From: Clostridia bacterium
GTDB lineage: Bacteria > Bacillota > Clostridia > Acetivibrionales > STF1-152
Direction of reading: 5' to 3'
Assembly (NCBI GenBank): GCA_028280575.1
Contig: JANQLN010000084.1
Coordinates: 1-63,103, forward strand
DNA: 63,103 nt
Part shown: in pieces, positions 32,319-44,411 of the stretch
Layout: each line of letters begins with the position of its first letter
Position numbering within the stretch: position 1 is the first letter of the stretch
The notes under the pieces: generated by a model
What the model saw: only the letters and a program-made list of their open reading frames with translations
Database searches by the model: none
What the model was told of the DNA's origin: nothing
Translations under genes and position numbers: made by a program

Positions 32319-34031
32319 TCACTCCTTTTTACATGCATGGCATTCCCGTGATACATGAAGAAGATGTCGCTTGTTTTGCAGTATGCCATTGTATAATGCC
32401 ATAATCATAGGGTTTTCTTCCGATCTTTTTATTTGGGAGGTTCGATCCACCTCGTAAATACCTTTTGCCCTTAATTTTTTGGTGCCGGCAGATGCGGGAA
32501 TCGGTTGTCCGGCTCCCCCAATGCAGCCCCCGGGACATGCCATGACTTCAACAAAGTCATATTGCTTTTCTCCGCTTTTGATAAGCTTTACAATTTTTTG
32601 TGCGTTATTTAATCCATGGACCACCGCAACTCTCATAGACCTCCCCTCCAGATCAATCTCAGCTTCTTTAATCCCTTCCATTCCACGGACACCGGTAAAG
32701 ATAATTTCTTTTAGAGTTTTAGCTGTTTTTTGCTTGTAGCATCTTCTCAGCACCGCTTCGGCCACTCCTCCCGTCACCCCGAATATCAGGCCGGCCCCGC
32801 TGGCAAGTCCAAAGGGCATATCCATGGATTCAGCCTCCAATTCATTAAAAACAATTCCTGCTTCTTTGATCATAAATGCCAGTTCCTGGGTAGTAATGAC
32901 AATATCCACATCCCTTTCTCCATGTACTTCAAGCTCCGGTCTGGATGCTTCAAATTTTTTAGCCGTACATGGCATAATAGAAACCATGACCGTATCTCTA
33001 CCGTCAATTTCCCGGGTATTGCGGTAGTGTTCCTTGATAACGGCTCCGAACATCTGCTGGGGAGAACGGCAGCTGGATATATTGCAAAGTAATTCAGGAT
33101 ATTTATGCTCCGCATATCTCACCCACGCGGGACAGCAAGAAGTAAACAGCGGGAAAGTGCCTCCCTCCTTGAATTTTTCCGTGAATTCTTTAGTCTCTTC
33201 CATTACGGTTAAATCTGCTGCTATGCCCGTATCATATATTTCATCAAATCCCAATTTTCTCATTGCGGCTACAATTTTTCCTGTTACTATTTCCCCCGGC
33301 TCCAATCCAAACTCTTCTCCCAAAGCTATCCTTAATGCAGGTGCAATCTGGGCTACGACTCTTTTATTTTTATTGGATAATACATCCCATACTTTTTTGG
33401 TCTCGTTTTTGACATGCAGTGCTCCGGTTGGGCAAACGGCGGTACATTGCCCGCAATTGACACATTGAACTTGAGCAAGCTGCCTGTTAAAAGCCGATGT
33501 TACCTTGATTTTAGAACCCCTATAGGCCAATCCCAGCACACCCACACCTTGTACTTCCTCGCACATCCTGATACAGTCACCGCACATGATGCATTTATTA
33601 GGATTCCTGACAATTGACGCACTGCTGTCATCCAATTCCTGATTATCCGGCATTGCTGAGAATCTTATACCTTTAATCCCAAACCGGACGGCCAAATCCT
33701 GCAGCTTGCATTTCCCATTCTTTTCACACACCGTACAATCCCTATGGTGATTGGATAGCAGCAATTCCAATATCATGCACCTGTGCTTTTGGATTTTAGG
33801 GGTATTGGTATATATGACCATCCCATCTTTGGGAGGAGTTGAACATGAAGCAATGGTTCCGCCCCATTGGTCTTCTACAATACACATCCGGCACGCGCCG
33901 TAAATGCTTAATTCGGAATGGTAGCAAAAAGTAGGCAGCTCAATGCCCGCTTTTCTGACTACTTCCAGAATATTTTTTTCTCCTTCATATGCTATCTTGT
34001 ACCCATCTATAATCATTGTTCCTTTCTTCAT
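32319..34031 (-). CDS. hydA: [FeFe]-hydrogenase catalytic subunit (bifurcating type)
   Basis: 570 residues from the ATG at 34031, seven bases after AAGGAGG. N-terminal [2Fe-2S] ligands Cys36, Cys47, Cys50 and Cys63, then a His-Cys3 cluster region (HRCMILELLLSNHHRDCTVCEKNGKC), two [4Fe-4S] sites (CIMCGDCIRMC, CVNCGQCTAVCP) and the H-cluster domain. All three H-cluster motifs are intact: FTSCCPAWV, MPCTAKKFE and MACPGGCIGG. Together with HydB and HydC it would form the NADH- (or NADPH-) and ferredoxin-coupled hydrogenase. Expressed from the operon promoter at 36458-36486 with a Rex site. Confidence 0.95.
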   Translation of the reverse strand: MKKGTMIIDGYKIAYEGEKNILEVVRKAGIELPTFCYHSELSIYGACRMCIVEDQWGGTIASCSTPPKDGMVIYTNTPKIQKHRCMILELLLSNHHRDCTVCEKNGKCKLQDLAVRFGIKGIRFSAMPDNQELDDSSASIVRNPNKCIMCGDCIRMCEEVQGVGVLGLAYRGSKIKVTSAFNRQLAQVQCVNCGQCTAVCPTGALHVKNETKKVWDVLSNKNKRVVAQIAPALRIALGEEFGLEPGEIVTGKIVAAMRKLGFDEIYDTGIAADLTVMEETKEFTEKFKEGGTFPLFTSCCPAWVRYAEHKYPELLCNISSCRSPQQMFGAVIKEHYRNTREIDGRDTVMVSIMPCTAKKFEASRPELEVHGERDVDIVITTQELAFMIKEAGIVFNELEAESMDMPFGLASGAGLIFGVTGGVAEAVLRRCYKQKTAKTLKEIIFTGVRGMEGIKEAEIDLEGRSMRVAVVHGLNNAQKIVKLIKSGEKQYDFVEVMACPGGCIGGAGQPIPASAGTKKLRAKGIYEVDRTSQIKRSEENPMIMALYNGILQNKRHLLHVSRECHACKKE

Positions 34032-34033
34032 GC

Positions 34034-35905
34034 TCATACCTCCTTGATTGCAGAAAATGGACAGGCTTCTATACAGGCCCCGCATTTGATGCATTGATCC
34101 TGGTTAATCCTGTATGGCTGTCTAACCTTCCCCTTGACGGCATCTACGGGACATGCCCGGGCACATTTGCTGCAGCCTTTGCACAAGTCCTGATCAATTG
34201 TGATTATTTTTAATGCCTGACAGCTTCCTGCCGGACACCTTTTGTCCACAACATGGGCAAGATACTCATCTTTAAAATATTTTAATGTACTGACCACAGG
34301 ATTGCCGGCAGTTTTACCCAAACCGCAGAGCGACGCACTGCTTACGGTATCTGCTATATCATACAGCAGGTCCAGGTCTTTAACCATCCCTTTTCCTTCT
34401 ACGATTCTTTCGAGAATTTCCTGCATTCTCCTGGTTCCCTCACGGCAGGGCACACATTTGCCGCAGGATTCATTCTGTGTAAAATTCATAAAAAACCTTG
34501 CGACTTCTACCATGCAGGTTTCTTCATCCATGACCACCAATCCTCCGGAGCCGATCATTGCACCTACTTTTTTCAAGGAGTCAAAATCCAGCGGTAAATC
34601 CAAATGTTCCTCCGTTAAGCAAGCTCCGGACGGGCCTCCGATTTGTACGGCCTTAAATCCATTGCCGTCTCTGATGCCGCCGCCAATTTCAAAAATAACT
34701 TCTCTCAATGTGGTGCCCATGGGCACTTCAATCAGCCCCGTATTATTCACGTTTCCGGTAATGGCAAAAGCTTTGGTGCCCGGACTTTTTTCCGGTCCCA
34801 TTGATTTGTACCATTCACTGCCATTTTGAATGATCAGGGATACATTGGCAAAGGTCTCCACATTGTTCAGCACCGTCGGCCTGCCCCATAGCCCGGCTTC
34901 TGTTGTCCTGGGCGGCCTTACTCTGGGCATTCCGCGCTTTCCTTCAATGGAAGCTGTCAATGCGCTCCCTTCACCGCATACAAAGGCACCTGCACCCTGG
35001 TTGATAAAAACATCAAAATCAAACCCGGACCCCAGTATATCCCTTCCAAGCAAACCGTATTCCCTGGCCTGTTCTACGGCGGTATTCAGCCTTTCTACCG
35101 CCAATGGGTATTCGGCCCTTACATATACGTATCCTTCGGACGCTCCTGTAGCATATCCCGCAATTATCATTCCCTCAATCATCCTGTGGGGATCGCCTTC
35201 CATTATACTCCGGTCCATAAATGCACCCGGGTCTCCTTCGTCACCGTTGCAAACCACATATTTGATTTTACTTTTCTGTGCCAGTACCTGGGACCATTTT
35301 CTCCCGGTGGGGAAGCCTCCCCCGCCTCTTCCTCTTAAATTGGAATCCGACACAATCTTGCATATTTCATCCGGTTCCATGGTTTGAAGTGCTCCGGCCA
35401 GTGCTTTATACCCGCTTTTTGCAATGTATTCCTGTATTGATTCCGCATCCATGTGCCCGCAATTTTCCAGGACAAGCCTTGTCTGCTTTTTATAAAAAAG
35501 AATTTCTTCCTGTGTAGGATATACTTTGCCTTCCCAACTGTACATGAGCCTTTCGACAGGCTTTCCTTCAATTAAGGTAGTTTGGACAACCTCCTCACAA
35601 TCCTGCGGCTTCACATTTATATATAAATATCCCTGGGGCTCAATTCTTACCAAAGGCCCCATTTCACAAAAACCATGGCATCCGCTTCTTTTAACGCCTA
35701 TGCCTTCCTTCTCCTCAGCCAGTTCCACTGACGCCAGCAATCCTGATTTATCAACTATTTGCTTGATTTTTTGGTAAATTTCTATGGAGCCTCCGGCAAC
35801 ACAACCTGTTCCGGCGCATATCAGTACTTTTTGAGACTGTTTTTTTAAAGCACCGGCATATAATTGCCCCATCTCTTCCAATTGCCGTACGGTTTTTATC
35901 TTCAT
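34034..35905 (-). CDS. hydB: Hydrogenase NuoF-like flavoprotein subunit
   Basis: 623 residues. N-terminal thioredoxin-like [2Fe-2S] domain (CAGTGCVAGGS ... GCHGFCEMGPL), then the FMN/NAD(H) domain (RGRGGGGFPTGRKW; NGDEGDPGAFMDR), the [4Fe-4S] site SCGKCVPCREGT, and two C-terminal ferredoxin clusters (CKGCSKCARACP, CIKCGACIEACP). This architecture is that of HydB/HndC, where electrons are split between NAD(P)H and ferredoxin. Its start overlaps the hydC stop by four bases (ATGA) and its stop is two bases from hydA. Confidence 0.95.
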   Translation of the reverse strand: MKIKTVRQLEEMGQLYAGALKKQSQKVLICAGTGCVAGGSIEIYQKIKQIVDKSGLLASVELAEEKEGIGVKRSGCHGFCEMGPLVRIEPQGYLYINVKPQDCEEVVQTTLIEGKPVERLMYSWEGKVYPTQEEILFYKKQTRLVLENCGHMDAESIQEYIAKSGYKALAGALQTMEPDEICKIVSDSNLRGRGGGGFPTGRKWSQVLAQKSKIKYVVCNGDEGDPGAFMDRSIMEGDPHRMIEGMIIAGYATGASEGYVYVRAEYPLAVERLNTAVEQAREYGLLGRDILGSGFDFDVFINQGAGAFVCGEGSALTASIEGKRGMPRVRPPRTTEAGLWGRPTVLNNVETFANVSLIIQNGSEWYKSMGPEKSPGTKAFAITGNVNNTGLIEVPMGTTLREVIFEIGGGIRDGNGFKAVQIGGPSGACLTEEHLDLPLDFDSLKKVGAMIGSGGLVVMDEETCMVEVARFFMNFTQNESCGKCVPCREGTRRMQEILERIVEGKGMVKDLDLLYDIADTVSSASLCGLGKTAGNPVVSTLKYFKDEYLAHVVDKRCPAGSCQALKIITIDQDLCKGCSKCARACPVDAVKGKVRQPYRINQDQCIKCGACIEACPFSAIKEV

Positions 35906-36384
35906 TTCCCCGCCTCCTTCTGCAAAGCCTGCAACAGCTCTAAAGCCGTTTTAGGAGTCATTTTGGCATATACTTTGTCATTGACCGTAATTACGGGTGC
36001 AAGCCCGCACGCTCCCAGACAGGATACCGTTTCAACGGTAAACAGCAGGTCATCGGTGCTGTGCTTCTCTTCACTGAGGTTAAGTTCCTTGCGAAGGGCA
36101 TTTAAAATAGGAATGGACTTTCTAACGTGGCAAGCCGTCCCGTCGCAGATTTTAATAACATATTTCCCTTTAGGCTCCAATGAAAAGTTTTCATAAAATG
36201 TTGCCACGCTGAAAATTTTTGCGGGGCTTATCTCCATCTCGGAGGATATATGCATTAATAAAGGTTCTGGAAGATATCTGTATTCTTTCTGTACTTCCTG
36301 CAAAACAGCAATTAACGCGGATTTTTTTCGCTGGTGCTTTTCAATGATTTCATTGGCTTTTTCTATCTGACAATTTGTTAACAT
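35902..36384 (-). CDS. hydC: Hydrogenase NuoE-like [2Fe-2S] subunit
   Basis: 160 residues, RBS ATGGAGGTCGCCC. Helical N-terminus (VLQEVQKEYRYLPEPLLMHIS) followed by a thioredoxin-like [2Fe-2S] domain with CDGTACHVRKS and CLGACGLAPVITVN. First gene of the hydCBA operon. The 338-base gap upstream contains its promoter, a Rex operator, and the structured 3' region of the TnpB-like gene. Confidence 0.95.
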   Translation of the reverse strand: MLTNCQIEKANEIIEKHQRKKSALIAVLQEVQKEYRYLPEPLLMHISSEMEISPAKIFSVATFYENFSLEPKGKYVIKICDGTACHVRKSIPILNALRKELNLSEEKHSTDDLLFTVETVSCLGACGLAPVITVNDKVYAKMTPKTALELLQALQKEAGK

Positions 36385-36435: not shown

Positions 36436-36453
36436 TTGTTAAAATAATAACAA
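36436..36453. promoter_or_regulatory. Rex operator at the hydrogenase promoter
   Basis: TTGTTAAAATAATAACAA, one mismatch from the clostridial Rex consensus TTGTTAA-N4-TTAACAA. It covers the expected transcription start, five bases downstream of the -10 box, so NADH-free Rex would block transcription. Confidence 0.8.
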
Positions 36454-36457
36454 TTTC

Positions 36458-36486
36458 ATTATACATTGCCTGGTATGGCTTATCAA
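36458..36486 (-). promoter_or_regulatory. Sigma-A promoter of the hydrogenase operon
   Basis: Minus strand TTGATA (36486-36481), 17-base spacer, TATAAT (36463-36458). Confidence 0.8.
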
Positions 36487-36524: not shown

Positions 36525-36546
36525 CCGTATTATAGATACGGTTTTT
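36525..36546 (-). promoter_or_regulatory. Putative guide segment / ATACGG dyad upstream of hyd promoter
   Basis: On the minus strand this reads AAAAACCGTATCTATAATACGG. Its first 14 bases (36546-36533) recur exactly at 44411-44398 upstream of hydS. CCGTAT and ATACGG form a dyad with a five-base centre. It begins ten bases after the CCCGGG hairpin, where a TnpB-type guide would start. It may be a guide, a protein operator, or both. Confidence 0.45.
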
Positions 36547-36723
36547 GGCTAGCATCCTCCCCCGGGAAAATTAATTCCCGGGAGATTCAGCAATTATCAG
36601 ATAGCTGCACTCTCATGAATAGTAATTCATGCTTACCATGTAAGGTTTAATCCGTCTATAAGCAGATGCCTGTAAACAGATCATGGTGCGGCAGCAAAAA
36701 CACCATTATACACTCAACATATA
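36547..36723 (-). ncRNA. Putative omegaRNA-like structured 3' region of the TnpB-like gene
   Basis: Immediately after the stop codon the minus strand folds into successive hairpins: ATGGTG/CACCAT (36683-36706), CATGAAT/ATTCATG (36614-36631) and CTCCCGGGAA/TTCCCGGGGGAG (36557-36584). The last lacks a T run, so it is not an ordinary terminator. The end GGGGGAGGATGC resembles right ends of clostridial IS605-type elements as I remember them, where the omegaRNA scaffold ends and the guide begins. Transcript existence is inferred. Confidence 0.4.
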
Positions 36724-38328
36724 TTAAATGATTTGTATGAGCCCGTTAAAATCTTCAGTATTCTCTATTTTCTTAATCAAGCTGTATTTTTTCTTAAAAT
36801 TTTTATGTTCCGCATGCTTATGGATGTTGTCGTAAAATTCACTAATTATTCTTTTTATTTCGTCCCGGAATTCATCCATACAATGGTTGGGGTTTGCAGG
36901 TGAATAATCCAATCCCAGTATCTGGTTTTTTAGCTTAATCCCCTTAATAGTCCTTTCCATTTTTATTTTGATGGTTCCGCTCCTGTGTTGATTCAGTCTT
37001 CTTGCAATATTGAAGCTTCCTAATCTTTCAATGTCCGTCGCAAGTCCACAGGCTACACAGATGAACATATCGGCGGAAAACCGGTTTTGCCCGGTGTGCA
37101 GCCCACAGTTGGGACATGTGTGGAATATTCCCACCGGGCTTACTTTGATTGGGGAAGGCAGCCTTTTACCATTCAGCTTATATTCAAGCATGGAAACCAG
37201 CCGGGTATAAGTGTAAGGGCTTAAAATAGGCCGGCAGCTTCCCCTTTCCTTTCTCCAATTTAACTTATCTGTTTTTTTACTTAAATCCTGCACCACTACT
37301 TGGGCCTTTTGCCTTACGGCAATATCGACAATCATATTTGCCATCCTATGCAGCATTGGCTCCCGCGTAAAATGTTCTTCTGCTTTTTGGCCTGCGGTAC
37401 CCATTGCCGGAGAACCATCCTTTAGAACATTGTTTCCACTGTCAACCACAGCATAAAAAACCGGATTTTTAAGCCCTCTGGCAACCCCCATGTAATTTTC
37501 AGTCTTGATCTCTTTTTCCTGTCCGGTATTTATGCTTACCGATAAATAATAATCTTTTTTCTTTTTATTCAGCCTTGCGGTTTTGAGCATGTCCGGCTTA
37601 TCAAGCGCTTTTTTTAAATAGGACTCCTGCCAGCTCCCGAAGGAAAGTGGAACCAGTATAAACCTTTCTTTTTTTTGAGTGTTCTCCAGTGCTTTTCCCT
37701 CTTTATAGATATAATACAGCTTTCTTTTGCCATTACCGCATACTTTTTTTCTATTGGGGTCTTTGCCGTTCATCAGGTATAATTTGGCATAGTAACGGTT
37801 GTTTTCCGGGTCATGGAGCAAGCAATAATCCCTGTTGCTTGCATACCGGCAAAAGAATACGGGCCGATATCTCAGGGTTTTCCGTATAATCTTATCAATC
37901 CGCCGCTCACACTGCCTTAAGCTTTTTTCTCCTTTTAGCAGTTTGGCCATTTCTTCGTCATATCTTTGCTGCCACTGATGTTCCGATAAATAGGCAGCAG
38001 GATACTGGACGGCCTGCTTTGACTCGCTGGTGCTTAAATAGCTTGCCAATGTCATGCCAAAATCAAGCTTGAGAGAGTCCTTAAAGGGTTGAACGCCAAA
38101 TTGGTTCAGTTCTCTGCTGATGTTTTTGTCAACCCATTTTGCAATGGACGCCGCTTTATAGTTCCCTTTCCCGTCAATATGGGTCCTGCGTATTTGCCCA
38201 ATTTGTGTATGGGCCTTGTCCAGCAGGTACTGATAGGCCTGGGAGTAATTCAGCATTGCCCGGTCAATCACATGCTTTTTCCTTCTGCCGGGCTTGTGAA
38301 GCTTCATGGTGATGGTTAGCATTGCCAT
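36724..38328 (-). CDS. Nuclease-dead TnpB-family protein (candidate RNA-guided regulator)
   Basis: 534 residues, RBS AAAGGGGAATACTC. The C-terminal half is TnpB-like: RuvC-I region YMGVARGLKNP, RuvC-II VVVQDLSKKTDKLNW, zinc ribbon Cys405/408/424/427 (CPNC, CVAC) and RuvC-III TDIERLGSFNIARR. The catalytic positions are replaced: Asp to Ala283, Glu to Gln347 and Asp to Glu434, while the fold-defining residues and zinc ligands remain. About 94 residues follow RuvC-III, an unusual tail, and the whole is longer than ordinary TnpB (~400). No TnpA and no CRISPR array nearby. It lies 107 bases after adhE and upstream of the hydrogenase operon, same strand. Retention of a long intact frame with dead catalysis suggests exaptation, as described for TldR proteins. 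Confidence 0.8.
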   Translation of the reverse strand: MAMLTITMKLHKPGRRKKHVIDRAMLNYSQAYQYLLDKAHTQIGQIRRTHIDGKGNYKAASIAKWVDKNISRELNQFGVQPFKDSLKLDFGMTLASYLSTSESKQAVQYPAAYLSEHQWQQRYDEEMAKLLKGEKSLRQCERRIDKIIRKTLRYRPVFFCRYASNRDYCLLHDPENNRYYAKLYLMNGKDPNRKKVCGNGKRKLYYIYKEGKALENTQKKERFILVPLSFGSWQESYLKKALDKPDMLKTARLNKKKKDYYLSVSINTGQEKEIKTENYMGVARGLKNPVFYAVVDSGNNVLKDGSPAMGTAGQKAEEHFTREPMLHRMANMIVDIAVRQKAQVVVQDLSKKTDKLNWRKERGSCRPILSPYTYTRLVSMLEYKLNGKRLPSPIKVSPVGIFHTCPNCGLHTGQNRFSADMFICVACGLATDIERLGSFNIARRLNQHRSGTIKIKMERTIKGIKLKNQILGLDYSPANPNHCMDEFRDEIKRIISEFYDNIHKHAEHKNFKKKYSLIKKIENTEDFNGLIQII

Positions 38329-38435: not shown

Positions 38436-41042
38436 TTATGACCCATATGCCTTTATATATATTTCCTCAAGCTCCTTTACAAGGGGCATTCTCGGATTGG
38501 CATTGGTGCACTGGTCTTCAAAAGCCCTGTCTGCAAGTCCCGGAACTTTTTCCATAAATTTCTTTTTATCTATACCGCATTGTCCGATGGTTGACGGCAT
38601 TTTAATTTCTTTCATCAGGTCCTTAATACCTTTAATAAGGCTGTCCACTCCCTGCCTGGTTGTGGATGCGGGCAAGCCCAGTGCTTTTGCAATCTCCGCA
38701 TATTTTTTATCGGCAATAAATGTTTCGTATTTCGGGAATGAAACAAATTTAGTGGGCTTTTTCGAATTGTATTCGATAACATAAGGCAGCAAAATAGCGT
38801 TGGCCCTCCCATGGGGTATATGGAATTCTCCGCCCAGTTTATGTGCCAGGCTGTGGTTAATCCCCAAAAATGCATTGGTAAATGCCATTCCGGCAATACA
38901 GGATGCATTGTGCATTTTTTCTCTTGCAACACTGTCACTGCCGTTTTTATATGACCTGTGCAGGTATTCAAAGACCATTTGGATGGCCTTGATGGCCAAC
39001 CCGTCGGTGAAGTCCGATGCCAGAACGGAAACATAGGCTTCAATAGCATGAGTTAATACATCCATTCCCGTATCGGCCGTAACAGAAGCCGGCACCGTCA
39101 TAACAAATTCAGGATCAATGATGGCAACATCGGGTGTTAATTCATAGTCGGCAAGGGGATATTTGATATTGTGCTTTTTGTCGGTGATGACCGAAAATGA
39201 TGTTACTTCCGACCCGGTTCCCGAAGTGGTTGGAATAGCTACCATTCTAGCCCGGTTGCCCAGCTTGGGAAATTTGAAAACCCTTTTACGTATATCCATA
39301 AACTTTAGCCTCAGGGAATGAAAGTTGGTTTCCGGATGTTCATAGAACAGCCACATTCCCTTTGCAGCGTCCATGGCAGACCCTCCGCCCAGTGCTATAA
39401 TGACATCCGGCTGGAACTTGTTCATAGCCTCACAACCCTTCATGACAGTATCTACAGACGGGTCAGGCTCCACCTCCGAAAATATTTCAAAATGAACATG
39501 CTCTTCTCTTTTCCTCAGGTAGTAAAGTATCTTTTCTACATAACCTAGCTTGACCATATAAGCATCTGTGACAATAAATGCTTTTTTGATATCAGGCATT
39601 TTTTCAAGATATTGTGTAGAACCGTATTCAAAGTATATCCTTTCCGGTATCTTAAACCACTGCATATTGACTCTCCTATTTGCCACTCTTTTTTTGTTGA
39701 TAAGATTAACTGCCGACACATTGGAGGTTGTGGAATTTTTCCCAAATGAACCACACCCTAATGTTAAAGACGGCATATTGGTATTATAAATATCTCCGAT
39801 TGCCCCATGGGTAGATGGAGAATTGATGATTAACCGTCCGGCCTTGATTCTGTTTGAGAAGGCTTCAATAACATCCGGATCTTCCGAATGAATAACCGCC
39901 GAGTGCCCCAGCCCTCCAAATTCAACCATTTCCTCAGCACGCTTGATTCCCTGCCGTGAATTTTCGACAACATAGTATGCCAATATTGGACTTAGTTTTT
40001 CACGGGATAAGGGATATTCAGGTCCCACCCCATCCAGAAGGGCTATGAGGATTTTTGTATCTTTGGGCACATTGATTCCTGCCATTTTTCCAATTATATG
40101 TGCGGATTGCCCTACCACCTCAGGATTCATTGCAGACTTCTTTTCATCGATTGCCAGCTTTTCCAGCCTGGATATTTCATCCCCTTTTAGGAAATAGCAA
40201 TTATTTTCCTTCATAAAGGCTTCGAATTCCTGGGCAATATCTTTGTCCACAATAACTGCTTGTTCTGAAGCGCAAATCATTCCGTTATCAAAGGTTTTAG
40301 ACATGATAAGGTCGGTTGCCGCCCTTTTCACATTGGCTGTTTTTTCAATATAGCAGGGCACATTACCCGGACCTACACCCAGTGCAGGTTTTCCTGTACT
40401 GTAAGCTGCCTTCACCATACCTGCGCCGCCTGTGGCAAGTATAAGTGCTACACTGGGATGATTCATCAGGGCCTGGGTAGCTTCCAGTGAAGGCTTTTCA
40501 ATCCACAGGATGCAATCCTTCGGAGCTCCTGCTTTGACAGCAGCGTCCCTGACTACCCTGGCAGCTTCGGTGCTGCATTTCTGGGCAGAAGGGTGGAATG
40601 CAAATATGATGGGATTTCTGGTTTTCATAGCTATGATGCATTTAAACATTGTAGTGGATGTAGGATTGGTGACCGGTGTTACTCCTGCAATAATACCTAC
40701 CGGTTCGGCCACTTCCACATAATCCTCAAAGTCGTTTTCACATATAACGCCAACGGTTTTGTCATATTTGATGCTGTGATAAACATATTCGGTGGCAAAG
40801 ATGTTCTTGGTAATTTTGTCCTCATATACTCCCCTGCCTGTTTCATCCACTGCCAGCTTTGCCAGGTGCATATGATCTTCCAAACCGGCCATTGCCATCT
40901 CTTTAATGATATGGTTTACCTTTTCCTGGTCAAGGGCCATCATTTTTTCCAATGCGGACCGGGCTCCGGTCACCAGGTTGTCAATGACTGTTTGAATGTC
41001 TTTTTGCCTATTTTCTTGATTTCGGGTAATCTTTTCTGCCAT
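38436..41042 (-). CDS. adhE: Bifunctional acetaldehyde-CoA/alcohol dehydrogenase
   Basis: 868 residues, RBS TAGGAGGTCATTTAA. Residues ~1-440 are the CoA-acylating aldehyde dehydrogenase with catalytic Cys in GMICASEQAV. Residues ~455-868 are an iron-dependent alcohol dehydrogenase (GGGSAMDAAKGMW; TTSGTGSEVT; iron ligands in DTGMDVLTHAIEAY and NHSLAHKLGGEFHIPHG). It converts acetyl-CoA to ethanol with two NADH. Full family length. Its promoter carries two Rex sites; the leader also contains a 24-bp dyad. Confidence 0.97.
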   Translation of the reverse strand: MAEKITRNQENRQKDIQTVIDNLVTGARSALEKMMALDQEKVNHIIKEMAMAGLEDHMHLAKLAVDETGRGVYEDKITKNIFATEYVYHSIKYDKTVGVICENDFEDYVEVAEPVGIIAGVTPVTNPTSTTMFKCIIAMKTRNPIIFAFHPSAQKCSTEAARVVRDAAVKAGAPKDCILWIEKPSLEATQALMNHPSVALILATGGAGMVKAAYSTGKPALGVGPGNVPCYIEKTANVKRAATDLIMSKTFDNGMICASEQAVIVDKDIAQEFEAFMKENNCYFLKGDEISRLEKLAIDEKKSAMNPEVVGQSAHIIGKMAGINVPKDTKILIALLDGVGPEYPLSREKLSPILAYYVVENSRQGIKRAEEMVEFGGLGHSAVIHSEDPDVIEAFSNRIKAGRLIINSPSTHGAIGDIYNTNMPSLTLGCGSFGKNSTTSNVSAVNLINKKRVANRRVNMQWFKIPERIYFEYGSTQYLEKMPDIKKAFIVTDAYMVKLGYVEKILYYLRKREEHVHFEIFSEVEPDPSVDTVMKGCEAMNKFQPDVIIALGGGSAMDAAKGMWLFYEHPETNFHSLRLKFMDIRKRVFKFPKLGNRARMVAIPTTSGTGSEVTSFSVITDKKHNIKYPLADYELTPDVAIIDPEFVMTVPASVTADTGMDVLTHAIEAYVSVLASDFTDGLAIKAIQMVFEYLHRSYKNGSDSVAREKMHNASCIAGMAFTNAFLGINHSLAHKLGGEFHIPHGRANAILLPYVIEYNSKKPTKFVSFPKYETFIADKKYAEIAKALGLPASTTRQGVDSLIKGIKDLMKEIKMPSTIGQCGIDKKKFMEKVPGLADRAFEDQCTNANPRMPLVKELEEIYIKAYGS

Positions 41043-41216: not shown

Positions 41217-42389
41217 TCAGTAATACTCTATATCGACAGCCTTACCCATTCCTTTCAAGAGCGCCGCCATCTCATTTACCAATTTGAGCTTTATACTCAA
41301 ATCCAGGGGAAGGTCCGGATTCTGGTGGGCAGGGTTCATAGCCCTTCCCATAAAGAAATGGATTTTTGTCCCCTGCTCCAGAAGCATCCTGGACAATCTG
41401 GATACCCCGTCTTTTTGATTGAGTTTTAAAATATCGTTGATACTGTTTTCGGAGGATGAGTATTTTTTAATATATTCCAGTGTCTTACCCAGTGTCAATA
41501 CACCCTCCGTTGTTAAATCAATGCCTTCAATATCTGCAGTTGGGGGAATCGAAGGATTAAAATAATTGAAATTGGTTATAAGCTCCCTTCCAAGCACTCT
41601 GCTGACAATTTGTGACGTGGTCCCCCCGCAAACTACCTTCTTACCCTCTTGAGACAGGAATTTTCCGACCACAGCATGGTCTTCATTACGGTTTACCGGC
41701 GGGCCAACCATTACATTGACCGTTAATGGCTTTCTGACCTTGACCGCGGCTACAGAAGTGTCGTCCCCCGGTTTTTGCATATATAGATTATCACATACCG
41801 ATAAAAGAAGCTTTACCATGTTTTTAGCCGTCATGTCCCGCTTATAGATACGACCGACATATTCTTTGATATTATCCCATTGCCATCCCAGATTTAATGT
41901 CCCCCCTATACCTGCATGTACCGCACCATCACTCATTATTATAAACATATCTCCGGGCTGTGCATTAAACCTGCTTTCTCGGATTGTTTTTCCATAGACG
42001 CTTCGTACCTGCTTTTTTATTTCTGCAAACCGGCCTTTTTTCAACATCAAGGTGGAAGGATTGTCAAATTCCACCAGATAAACCTCTCCGGTGTGAAACA
42101 GCTGCAATATGGTAAATGTAGAATAAGCAATTCCCCTTTCTTTACACTCAGGCAGCGTACTTGCAATGGTTTCTACCGCTTGTTCGATATTAGCGCCGCC
42201 GACAAGCATTGTACCTATAATCTTGCTTGTCAGTGTTGCAAGTATGTTGGCTTTTACCCCGCTCCCCAGTCCATCGGCCAGAACCACTATAACAAAGTTT
42301 TCATTTCTGATAACCTCCACCTTGTCGCCGCATAACTCCTCATCATATTTATTCAGGCCTTCAAAGCTGGCTTCAATATATAAACTCAT
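41217..42389 (-). CDS. SpoIIE-type (PP2C) serine phosphatase of the HydS module
   Basis: 390 residues from the ATG at 42389, whose ATGA overlaps the hydS stop; RBS AGGTGATTGCGA. Residues ~30-215 form the phosphatase domain: VVLADGLGSGVKAN, SDGAVHAGIGGTL and KPGDDTSVAAVKV supply the metal-binding aspartates. The C-terminal ~170 residues are an additional domain of unknown role, starting VNVMVGPPVNRNEDHAVV. It should be the output of the hydrogen-sensing protein encoded just upstream, dephosphorylating an unidentified partner. Confidence 0.88.
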   Translation of the reverse strand: MSLYIEASFEGLNKYDEELCGDKVEVIRNENFVIVVLADGLGSGVKANILATLTSKIIGTMLVGGANIEQAVETIASTLPECKERGIAYSTFTILQLFHTGEVYLVEFDNPSTLMLKKGRFAEIKKQVRSVYGKTIRESRFNAQPGDMFIIMSDGAVHAGIGGTLNLGWQWDNIKEYVGRIYKRDMTAKNMVKLLLSVCDNLYMQKPGDDTSVAAVKVRKPLTVNVMVGPPVNRNEDHAVVGKFLSQEGKKVVCGGTTSQIVSRVLGRELITNFNYFNPSIPPTADIEGIDLTTEGVLTLGKTLEYIKKYSSSENSINDILKLNQKDGVSRLSRMLLEQGTKIHFFMGRAMNPAHQNPDLPLDLSIKLKLVNEMAALLKGMGKAVDIEYY

Positions 42390-44107
42390 TCGCAATCACC
42401 TATATCCGAAAGAATGGAATTTTTTAGCTTTGTCAATGCGATTTTGGTTTCCGCAGTTGTTTCTCCCAATAAGCTCGCTATTTCCTGTACCACCCTCATC
42501 TGCTTTTCAATAACCTTCTGGGCGACATCAACGGTCTCCGAACGGGCCTTGTATATTTTCTGCTGCTGTTTTTCCTCTTTTGATATATCCTTCATCAGTA
42601 CAATAATCAATTGCTGCTCTTCAATATATAATAATGACTGCTCAACCATCACATCATATTTTTCATAATAATATTTGTGATTTAATATGTTTTCTCCCGT
42701 TTCACTTATATTTACAAAATTCGAACAGTCCAATATATCATAAACATGCCTTCCCAATACCTCCCGCTTTTTCAATCCGAACATCTGCTGTGCGCTCTGG
42801 TTGATTTCCTGGATTTTGAGCTCCTTATTCATTGCGATAATGGCATTTGGCGTGGATTGGATAATAATATTGGAAATGGATTCGGCCCTTTCTCTCATAT
42901 AAGGTAAGCACATATGCAGCTCGGCTTTGTTGTTATAAACCGCAATTGCCTTTTCCCTGCAAGTAGAATATCCGCAGGCACTGCAGTTGAGCTCTTTTTC
43001 CTCCGTCCATTTTCCAATTTTCCCTAATATTTCTCTTATGCTTGCATCGTCAGGCATTTGAAGGTATTTAGACCTGTTCACAAACCTTTTAGACATATCA
43101 ATGGATACATCTGCCGCAAGAGTAACATCTTTATCCCTGACACTGCTTTTTACATATTCTATCAAACGGTCCCTTGCTTTTAACAATCCTCCCCGGATAG
43201 AAGTCATGCAAGGCCCTCCCAGGCATCCGCCCGTACATGCATTCATTTCTATGAAATACCTCCGGACCTCTCCTTCTCTAATTGCATTGAGCACATCAAT
43301 AGACCTGTCTATTCCATCAATGCTGACAGTTCTGTATTTTTTACGGGATTCGGAGCCCAGGGTTTTGATAATACCGCCGGGTGCCGGGTAAAATCTTGCC
43401 AGCTCATTTTTTGCAGCCTTTATCTCCGACCTATCTTCCCGTTCCAGCTCAATTTTTTCCGATGCCACCCATTCACACAGCTCTTCAAATGTGATAATGG
43501 CATCTACGGCTCCGTCGTTTTGAAAATCGTTGCATTCTCCCTTTTTAGAAAGACAGGGACCTATAAATACTACTTTTATCCTGGAACCGTAGACTGCTCG
43601 CATCATTTTAGCATGAGCAATCATTGGCGAAACAACAGGCGCCATAAAATCAATCAATTCAGGATAATATTTTTCAATTAACAATACGGTAGTAGGACAG
43701 GCAGTTGTAATAATGTTTTCCATATTACCCTGGTTTAAAAGCTTTTTATACTCGCTGGTTACCTGGGATGCCCCTATGGCCGTTTCCTCAATATGTGTAA
43801 ATCCCAGCTTTTTCAGTATGCCTGCCACTTTTGCACCGTTTTGTATTTCAAATACCGATACAAAGGATGGAGCAAGGCTGACATAGACCTTTTCCTTCTT
43901 TTCAATAAAATCTTTAACTCTTTCAATGTCACTTCTGACCTTCTTTGCGTTTTGCGGGCATACCAGCAGGCATTGTCCGCACAATATGCATTCCTCCTGC
44001 ACTATTTGAGCCTGTTCCTTTTTGAATGAGATTGCTTTTATCGGGCAGCTTCGAATACATTTATAACAGTTTTTGCAATTTGCTTCCTTAAACTGGATAA
44101 TGCTCAT
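42386..44107 (-). CDS. hydS: Sensory [FeFe]-hydrogenase with PAS domain (group C, HydS)
   Basis: 573 residues from the ATG at 44107, RBS GGGGAGGTTGTAA. Two N-terminal [4Fe-4S] motifs (CKNCYKCIRSCP, CILCGQCLLVCP), then an H-cluster domain with modified motifs TTACPTTV, GPCLSKKGEC and MNACTGGCLGG. All four cluster cysteines are kept, but the proton-relay Cys of TSCCP is Ala, and MPC is GPC. A CxxCGYxxC...C cluster site follows (CSACGYSTCREKA, then CLPY), then a PAS domain (about residues 410-520) and a helical tail. Family knowledge: such proteins are proposed H2 sensors. Co-translated with the phosphatase. Confidence 0.9.
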   Translation of the reverse strand: MSIIQFKEANCKNCYKCIRSCPIKAISFKKEQAQIVQEECILCGQCLLVCPQNAKKVRSDIERVKDFIEKKEKVYVSLAPSFVSVFEIQNGAKVAGILKKLGFTHIEETAIGASQVTSEYKKLLNQGNMENIITTACPTTVLLIEKYYPELIDFMAPVVSPMIAHAKMMRAVYGSRIKVVFIGPCLSKKGECNDFQNDGAVDAIITFEELCEWVASEKIELEREDRSEIKAAKNELARFYPAPGGIIKTLGSESRKKYRTVSIDGIDRSIDVLNAIREGEVRRYFIEMNACTGGCLGGPCMTSIRGGLLKARDRLIEYVKSSVRDKDVTLAADVSIDMSKRFVNRSKYLQMPDDASIREILGKIGKWTEEKELNCSACGYSTCREKAIAVYNNKAELHMCLPYMRERAESISNIIIQSTPNAIIAMNKELKIQEINQSAQQMFGLKKREVLGRHVYDILDCSNFVNISETGENILNHKYYYEKYDVMVEQSLLYIEEQQLIIVLMKDISKEEKQQQKIYKARSETVDVAQKVIEKQMRVVQEIASLLGETTAETKIALTKLKNSILSDIGDCE

Positions 44108-44144
44108 TTTACAACCTCCCCTATGATACACTCATAAATCTGTT

Positions 44145-44397: not shown

Positions 44398-44411
44398 TAG
44401 ATACGGTTTTT
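44398..44411 (-). promoter_or_regulatory. 14-base match to the putative guide, upstream of hydS
   Basis: Minus strand AAAAACCGTATCTA, identical to 36546-36533. It lies 48 bases upstream of the hydS -35 box (46 bases at the hyd promoter). A second TTGACA occurs just 5' of it at 44424-44419, so it could also overlap an alternative promoter. Confidence 0.5.

Follow-up and report, generated by a model that had tools for sequence, protein, structure and literature searches.

Nuclease-dead TnpB-like repressors (TldRs) are known in fliC- and csrA-associated kinds and, besides these, in an oppF-associated kind. Another nuclease-dead relative is the natural dCas12f (PDB 9n9c/9n9m), which is used for RNA-guided transcription with a sigma-factor partner. 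The TldRs characterised in PMC13418256 act on flagellin genes, and for a characterised TldR 6-nucleotide (nt) guides are sufficient and the seed is 6 nt. As for putative sensory [FeFe]-hydrogenases, deletion of hfsB raised adhE expression (PMC5707799) and a Ruminococcus albus cluster made up of a sensory hydrogenase, a phosphatase and adhE dropped 111-fold in co-culture with a hydrogen (H2) consumer (PMC6776011), and the output regulator of such hydrogenases was left open in both studies (PMC5707799, PMC6776011). We describe here a locus in which these two kinds of system appear to meet. It lies in a stretch of 63,103 nucleotides from a Clostridia bacterium (GCA_028280575.1, contig JANQLN010000084.1, positions 1 to 63,103), called the window below, and its central element is a gene for a nuclease-dead TnpB/Cas12f-like protein next to the hydrogenase genes hydCBA. 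We consider it likely that this gene codes for a TldR-like RNA-guided transcription factor that uses a nearly fixed 6-nt guide and is probably an activator and the output of an H2 sensor.

The TnpB-like gene is at 36724..38328 on the (-) strand and its reading frame is open through 534 codons. The protein scores barely over the cut-off of PF07282 and matches the guided_TnpB model NF040570 at 4e-15, which is under that model's own cut-off, and it is the sole PF07282 match in its 4.35-Mb genome. An earlier sequence-only reading had claimed that all three catalytic RuvC residues are replaced in an otherwise full-length protein. When the family profile was aligned to Cas12f structures, the catalytic Asp/Glu/Asp corresponded to Ala283/Gln347/Glu434, and the same three residues stood at the catalytic positions in an alignment made jointly with ordinary TnpBs from the same order, which retain D/E/D. 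The intact zinc ribbon (CPNC...CVAC), the complete frame and the 94-residue tail after RuvC-III were also as described. In the AlphaFold model (predicted local distance difference test, pLDDT, 84) residues 1-454 form a complete Cas12f/TnpB architecture which matches AsCas12f 7wju (Z 19.1 over 345 residues, root-mean-square deviation, rmsd, 3.3), ISDra2 TnpB 8h1j (Z 14.8) and the natural dCas12f 9n9c (Z 14.3). The part from about residue 455 onward is a separate, extra domain, modelled with confidence (pLDDT 88), for which sequence searches found no relative. A fold search with this domain gave one notable match, 3k6q (Z 8.4, 89 residues, rmsd 3.2), from which a function cannot be named; the stretch in question, residues 445-534 (36727-36996 of the window), consists of a beta-hairpin and helices, and 3k6q, a single structural match, is annotated as the antitoxin of a putative toxin/antitoxin pair.

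Besides the window, 16 orthologs were found among 58 genomes of the same order, one per genome. A scan of a wider genome collection returned no matches with a single protein as the query and 24 loci with the family alignment as the query, including loci from Ruminiclostridium, Pseudobacteroides, Petroclostridium, Anaerobacterium and Caproiciproducens, and broader searches brought in further members from outside the order, one genus of another order included. In 24/24 aligned members the RuvC-I Asp has given way to Ser, Ala, Thr or Gly, and the D/E/D triad is complete in none of them. The triple catalytic loss seen in the window protein does not extend to the whole family: only the loss of the RuvC-I Asp is invariant, while the RuvC-II Glu is kept in several members and the RuvC-III residue is Glu, Asp or Lys. 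The ratio of nonsynonymous to synonymous substitution rates (dN/dS) in close ortholog pairs is 0.07-0.15. The gene family is conserved, single-copy and under purifying selection.

A conserved RNA element starts directly 3' of the stop codon of the TnpB-like gene. In the window this structured RNA, a putative guide RNA scaffold with hairpins and a pseudoknot, is at 36599..36708 on the (-) strand and has the 3' end UAUCU; the predicted 6-nt guide, UAUCUG (36598..36603, (-) strand), comes directly after the pseudoknot strand GCAGC. A MAFFT alignment of 26 sequences gave a five-helix structure that is 89.9% paired and in which the pseudoknot joins the first loop to the 3' end. Two-sided changes were found in 17 of the 28 pairs, with 105 such cells in the alignment; shuffles had 41, and slid versions never more than 40. 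The pseudoknot helix itself covaries, from GCUGC/GCAGC to GCUAC/GUAGC, and RNAalifold recovered it unaided. Four single sequences including the 3' hairpin had folding z values of -4.4 to -6.2. A covariance model found one strong copy, located beside the gene, in each of the gene-bearing genomes (28/28) and none in the genomes that lack the gene (0/18), and one genus with strong matches was outside the training set. Nothing was found in the element at Rfam thresholds and no Rfam family covers it. The same model gave three weak matches of equal score in one genome (G027:C1:1916304, 1923617 and 1930930) spaced exactly 7313 base pairs (bp) apart, which is a sign of a long tandem repeat. After the pseudoknot strand nearly all loci have UAUCU[A/G], and three have UAUUUA. 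A strong hairpin follows, mostly within about 20 nt 3' of the guide and in some loci only 5-8 nt from it; in the window it is CTCCCGGGAA...TTCCCGGGGGAG (36557..36584, (-) strand), and the T-run that comes after the hairpin in relatives is absent there. As far as alignment and folding can tell, the layout of this RNA is that of a TnpB-type guide RNA.

The guide hexamer was found, after ACC[G/T/A], upstream of hydC and/or hydS. The window has two predicted target sites, each AAAACCG followed by TATCTA on the (-) strand, one in the hydCBA promoter (36533..36545) and one upstream of the hydS operon (44398..44410), and the exact 13-mer AAAACCGTATCTA occurs only at these two promoters in the whole genome. 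Each locus's own guide after CC[AGT] was present in 22/64 hyd promoter regions versus 0.19 (maximum 3) in dinucleotide shuffles and 2 on the opposite strand; such a site is present in 14/18 hydC regions and in none of the hydC-like promoters of 14 genomes that lack the TnpB-like gene. Guide and site tend to change together, to TATTT in L066 and L067 and to TATCTT in L032/L151, and TATCTG sites occur only at loci with G in the guide (L049, L155). Swapping guides among loci reduced the match at positions 1-6 (permutation p 0.0002) and not at positions 7-12, and therefore the working guide is about 6 nt; past about position 8 complementarity was no better than in swapped pairs. Neither the guide-like RNA nor the matching hydrogenase-promoter sites had been seen in the sequence-only reading.

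Other places were considered as targets as well. Matches to TTACCGTATCTA that are common to several Ruminiclostridium genomes were ruled out as a distal target because they lie inside a NuoE-like coding sequence, and counts of a looser motif over 20 genomes were not above a reversed-pattern control, so that a wide regulon is unsupported. In R. hungatei (L207, G040:C27:51129-51143) a second hydC-like gene, located elsewhere in the genome, has ATACCTTATCTATAA upstream of it, 33 nt away from the -35 box, and this is a possible target in trans. The genus of another order (L152, L153, L223-L228) has both the gene and the RNA, with UAUCUG in the two that were read, and in the two loci read there is no ACCNTATCT site near hydC or hydS.

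In most promoters guide position 1 of the site is 23, 33, 41-42 or 52-54 nt upstream of a good sigma-70-type -35 box, which puts the sites at about -58, -68, -77 and -88 from the predicted start, and several promoters have two sites about 30 bp apart. In the window the predicted hydCBA core promoter is TTGATA-N17-TATAAT (36458..36486, (-) strand) in which 52 nt separate the -35 box from guide position 1, and upstream of the hydS operon this distance is 54 nt. Over 29 sites the spacing was helically phased with R 0.73 at 10.5 bp, and when each combination of lineage and promoter contributed one value, seven in all, p was about 0.005, though shared ancestry is not fully removed from either figure. 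Class I activators typically show helical phasing, which a roadblock does not require. Because the sites keep helical-step spacing upstream of the -35 boxes, activation of the target promoters is favoured over repression on the basis of promoter geometry. The predicted hydC and hydS promoters, in the window and in many relatives, also have a Rex-like operator, TTGTTA-N-TAACA, immediately behind the -10 box, where in many of them it overlaps the start region. The copy in the start region of hydCBA, TTGTTATTATTTTAACA (36437..36453, (-) strand), is a pattern match only, and through it NADH and H2 signals may meet at the start region.

The gene order around the TnpB-like gene is conserved too. The sequence-only reading had placed the gene between adhE and hydCBA, and this setting proved to be more specific than was claimed: in 24/24 scanned loci hydS and a gene for a SpoIIE-type phosphatase precede the TnpB-like gene on the same strand, the window and several relatives additionally have adhE between the phosphatase gene and the TnpB-like gene, and hydCBA is nearby in most loci with enough flanking sequence. 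The ortholog comparison that the same reading had called for showed that the orthologs share both the catalytic loss and the setting among hydrogenase genes. In the window, all on the (-) strand, hydS (42386..44131) codes for a putative H2 sensor with an [FeFe]-hydrogenase domain, FeS and PAS domains, and it is followed by the SpoIIE-type (PP2C-like) phosphatase gene (41217..42395) and adhE (38436..41042). The predicted target operon consists of hydC (35902..36384), its first gene, coding for a 2Fe-2S thioredoxin-like subunit, hydB (34034..35905), coding for a NuoF-like subunit, and hydA (32319..34094), coding for the [FeFe]-hydrogenase catalytic subunit. With its hydrogenase domain, PAS domain and adjacent phosphatase gene, HydS has the features of a putative group C sensory [FeFe]-hydrogenase. 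The gap from the TnpB-like gene to the preceding gene is mostly short, often 16-40 nt, and therefore the TnpB-like gene is likely to be cotranscribed with the hydS operon. HydS of at least 57% identity was found in exactly the 17 genomes of the order that have the TnpB-like gene, and in five other genomes of the order, which lack it, HydS has at most 47% identity. In two loci (L036:8561-8833, (-) strand, and L047:12897-13178, (+) strand) a protein of 90-93 amino acids with no Pfam match is encoded after the TnpB-like gene and has its own upstream ACC[GT]TATCTA site.

We propose that a domesticated nuclease-dead TnpB/Cas12f-type protein would employ the structured RNA that lies 3' of its own gene, and that the protein-RNA complex would recognise a target-adjacent-motif-like ACC[G/T/A] plus a 6-bp match to the guide UAUCU[A/G]. 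The complex would bind at two promoters, that of hydCBA and that of the hydS operon to which its gene belongs and which in the window's lineage includes adhE, about 58-89 bp upstream of the start site and on one helical face, and would most likely activate both. HydS and the SpoIIE-type phosphatase probably tune the activity of the complex to H2, and Rex probably contributes an NADH signal at the start region. In our estimate it is as likely as not that such a TnpB-derived activator, whose 6-nt guide is nearly fixed, supplies the missing output of the sensory hydrogenase/phosphatase pathway linking H2 to hydrogenase and ethanol genes. Several points weigh against the proposal. Its support is computational and consists of the protein family, the catalytic loss, the operon, the RNA structure with its one-to-one linkage, the sites, the guide-site covariation and the spacing, from which we infer RNA binding, DNA binding, activation and control by HydS and the phosphatase; action of the phosphatase on the TnpB-like protein is likewise something that we infer. 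The matched stretch is only about 6 bp, no clear site is in view at six loci (L033, L056, L062, L071, L152, L153), guide and site mismatch at position 4 in L038 and L057 and at position 5 in L034/L149, the sites of L045, L149 and L151 were read by eye, and the permutation and phasing tests were uncorrected for shared ancestry.

That the same complex and sites serve to repress hydCBA and hydS, with HydS/phosphatase signalling lifting the repression, we regard as unlikely, although the characterised TldRs do repress their targets (PMC13418256) and a complex that also occupies the promoter of its own operon would resemble an autorepressor. If this were the case, then the sites should overlap the promoter or lie at roadblock positions, but they are clear of the -35 and -10 boxes and stand at helical steps. 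The sequence-only reading had suggested a TldR-like regulator, and the regulator part has gained computational support from the conserved locus, the guide-like RNA and the promoter sites, while the repressor part is doubtful since the site geometry points to activation. The shortness of the match, together with the loci that have no site or a mismatched one, could also mean that a different regulator owns the ACCGTATCTA motif, that RNA and site share the hexamer by coincidence and that the protein has kept TnpB-type RNA binding with the RNA serving protein stability or an unrelated role. This is improbable in view of the joint changes of guide and site in L066/L067 and L032/L151, the excess of own-guide sites over shuffles and the lack of such sites in the hydC promoters of the 14 gene-less genomes. 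Finally, since the protein does descend from the TnpB superfamily, it could be a decaying transposon-borne TnpB lying by chance in a hydrogenase locus. We give this practically no credence, and a decaying transposon copy is ruled out by conservation and synteny: the family is not decaying because full-length orthologs are present in many genomes and dN/dS is low (about 0.08), and the gene is single-copy, lies in the same operon in every locus and has a one-to-one RNA, with no tnpA seen among its neighbours.

TnpB-derived RNA-guided transcription factors are a recent discovery, and the RNA-guided activator proposed here, if true, would be one that is built into both central metabolism and signalling. 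The family spans several Clostridia families, among them cellulose degraders that serve in biofuel research, and with it one can test how putative sensory [FeFe]-hydrogenases hand their H2 signal on to the hydrogenase genes and adhE. A dedicated guide of 6 nt is also relevant to the question of how ordinary regulators can arise from programmable RNA-guided proteins. A literature search combining TnpB with hydrogenase returned no title or abstract of relevance, which does not exclude an earlier mention of the clade.

The protein shares its fold, its zinc ribbon and an adjacent structured RNA with IS200/IS605-type TnpB and Cas12f nucleases. It differs from them in that the catalytic residues are lost, so that the window protein does not have the intact D/E/D of an active TnpB nuclease, and in its vertical operon conservation: an IS200/IS605 mobile element is not indicated by the one PF07282 copy in the genome, the constant operon and the neighbours, among which no tnpA or other transposase gene was seen, where element ends were not searched. 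No CRISPR array was noticed on reading the locus, although no search was aimed at arrays. To the natural dCas12f (PDB 9n9c/9n9m) it is alike in its nuclease-dead Cas12f-type fold and in possible RNA-guided activation, but here the partners are HydS and a SpoIIE-type phosphatase, the RNA is a family of its own and no sigma-factor gene was seen in the neighbourhood. The HydS/HfsB-type clusters of Thermoanaerobacterium (hfsABCD) and R. albus have the same PAS-hydrogenase and phosphatase and are tied to adhE/hydrogenase expression (PMC5707799, PMC6776011), whereas here a TnpB-derived protein and its RNA are a constant extra part, which the relatives with low-identity HydS do not have. With the TldRs the system has in common a TnpB-derived protein with a dead RuvC, a gene-adjacent guide RNA, a short seed and sites in promoters of functionally linked genes (PMC13418256); membership of the TnpB superfamily, the inactivated RuvC, the gene-adjacent RNA conserved in sequence and structure and the stable non-transposon gene association were all found, and so was the match of about 6 nt after ACCN at the linked hydC/hydS promoters, except in six loci. 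By these features, that the protein works like a TldR is better supported than that it is a TldR repressor. It differs in being linked to a hydrogenase and H2-sensing operon, in a guide of about 6 nt that is nearly fixed across genera, with a hairpin mostly close behind it, in the extra C-terminal domain and in a geometry that is activator-like rather than repressor-like.
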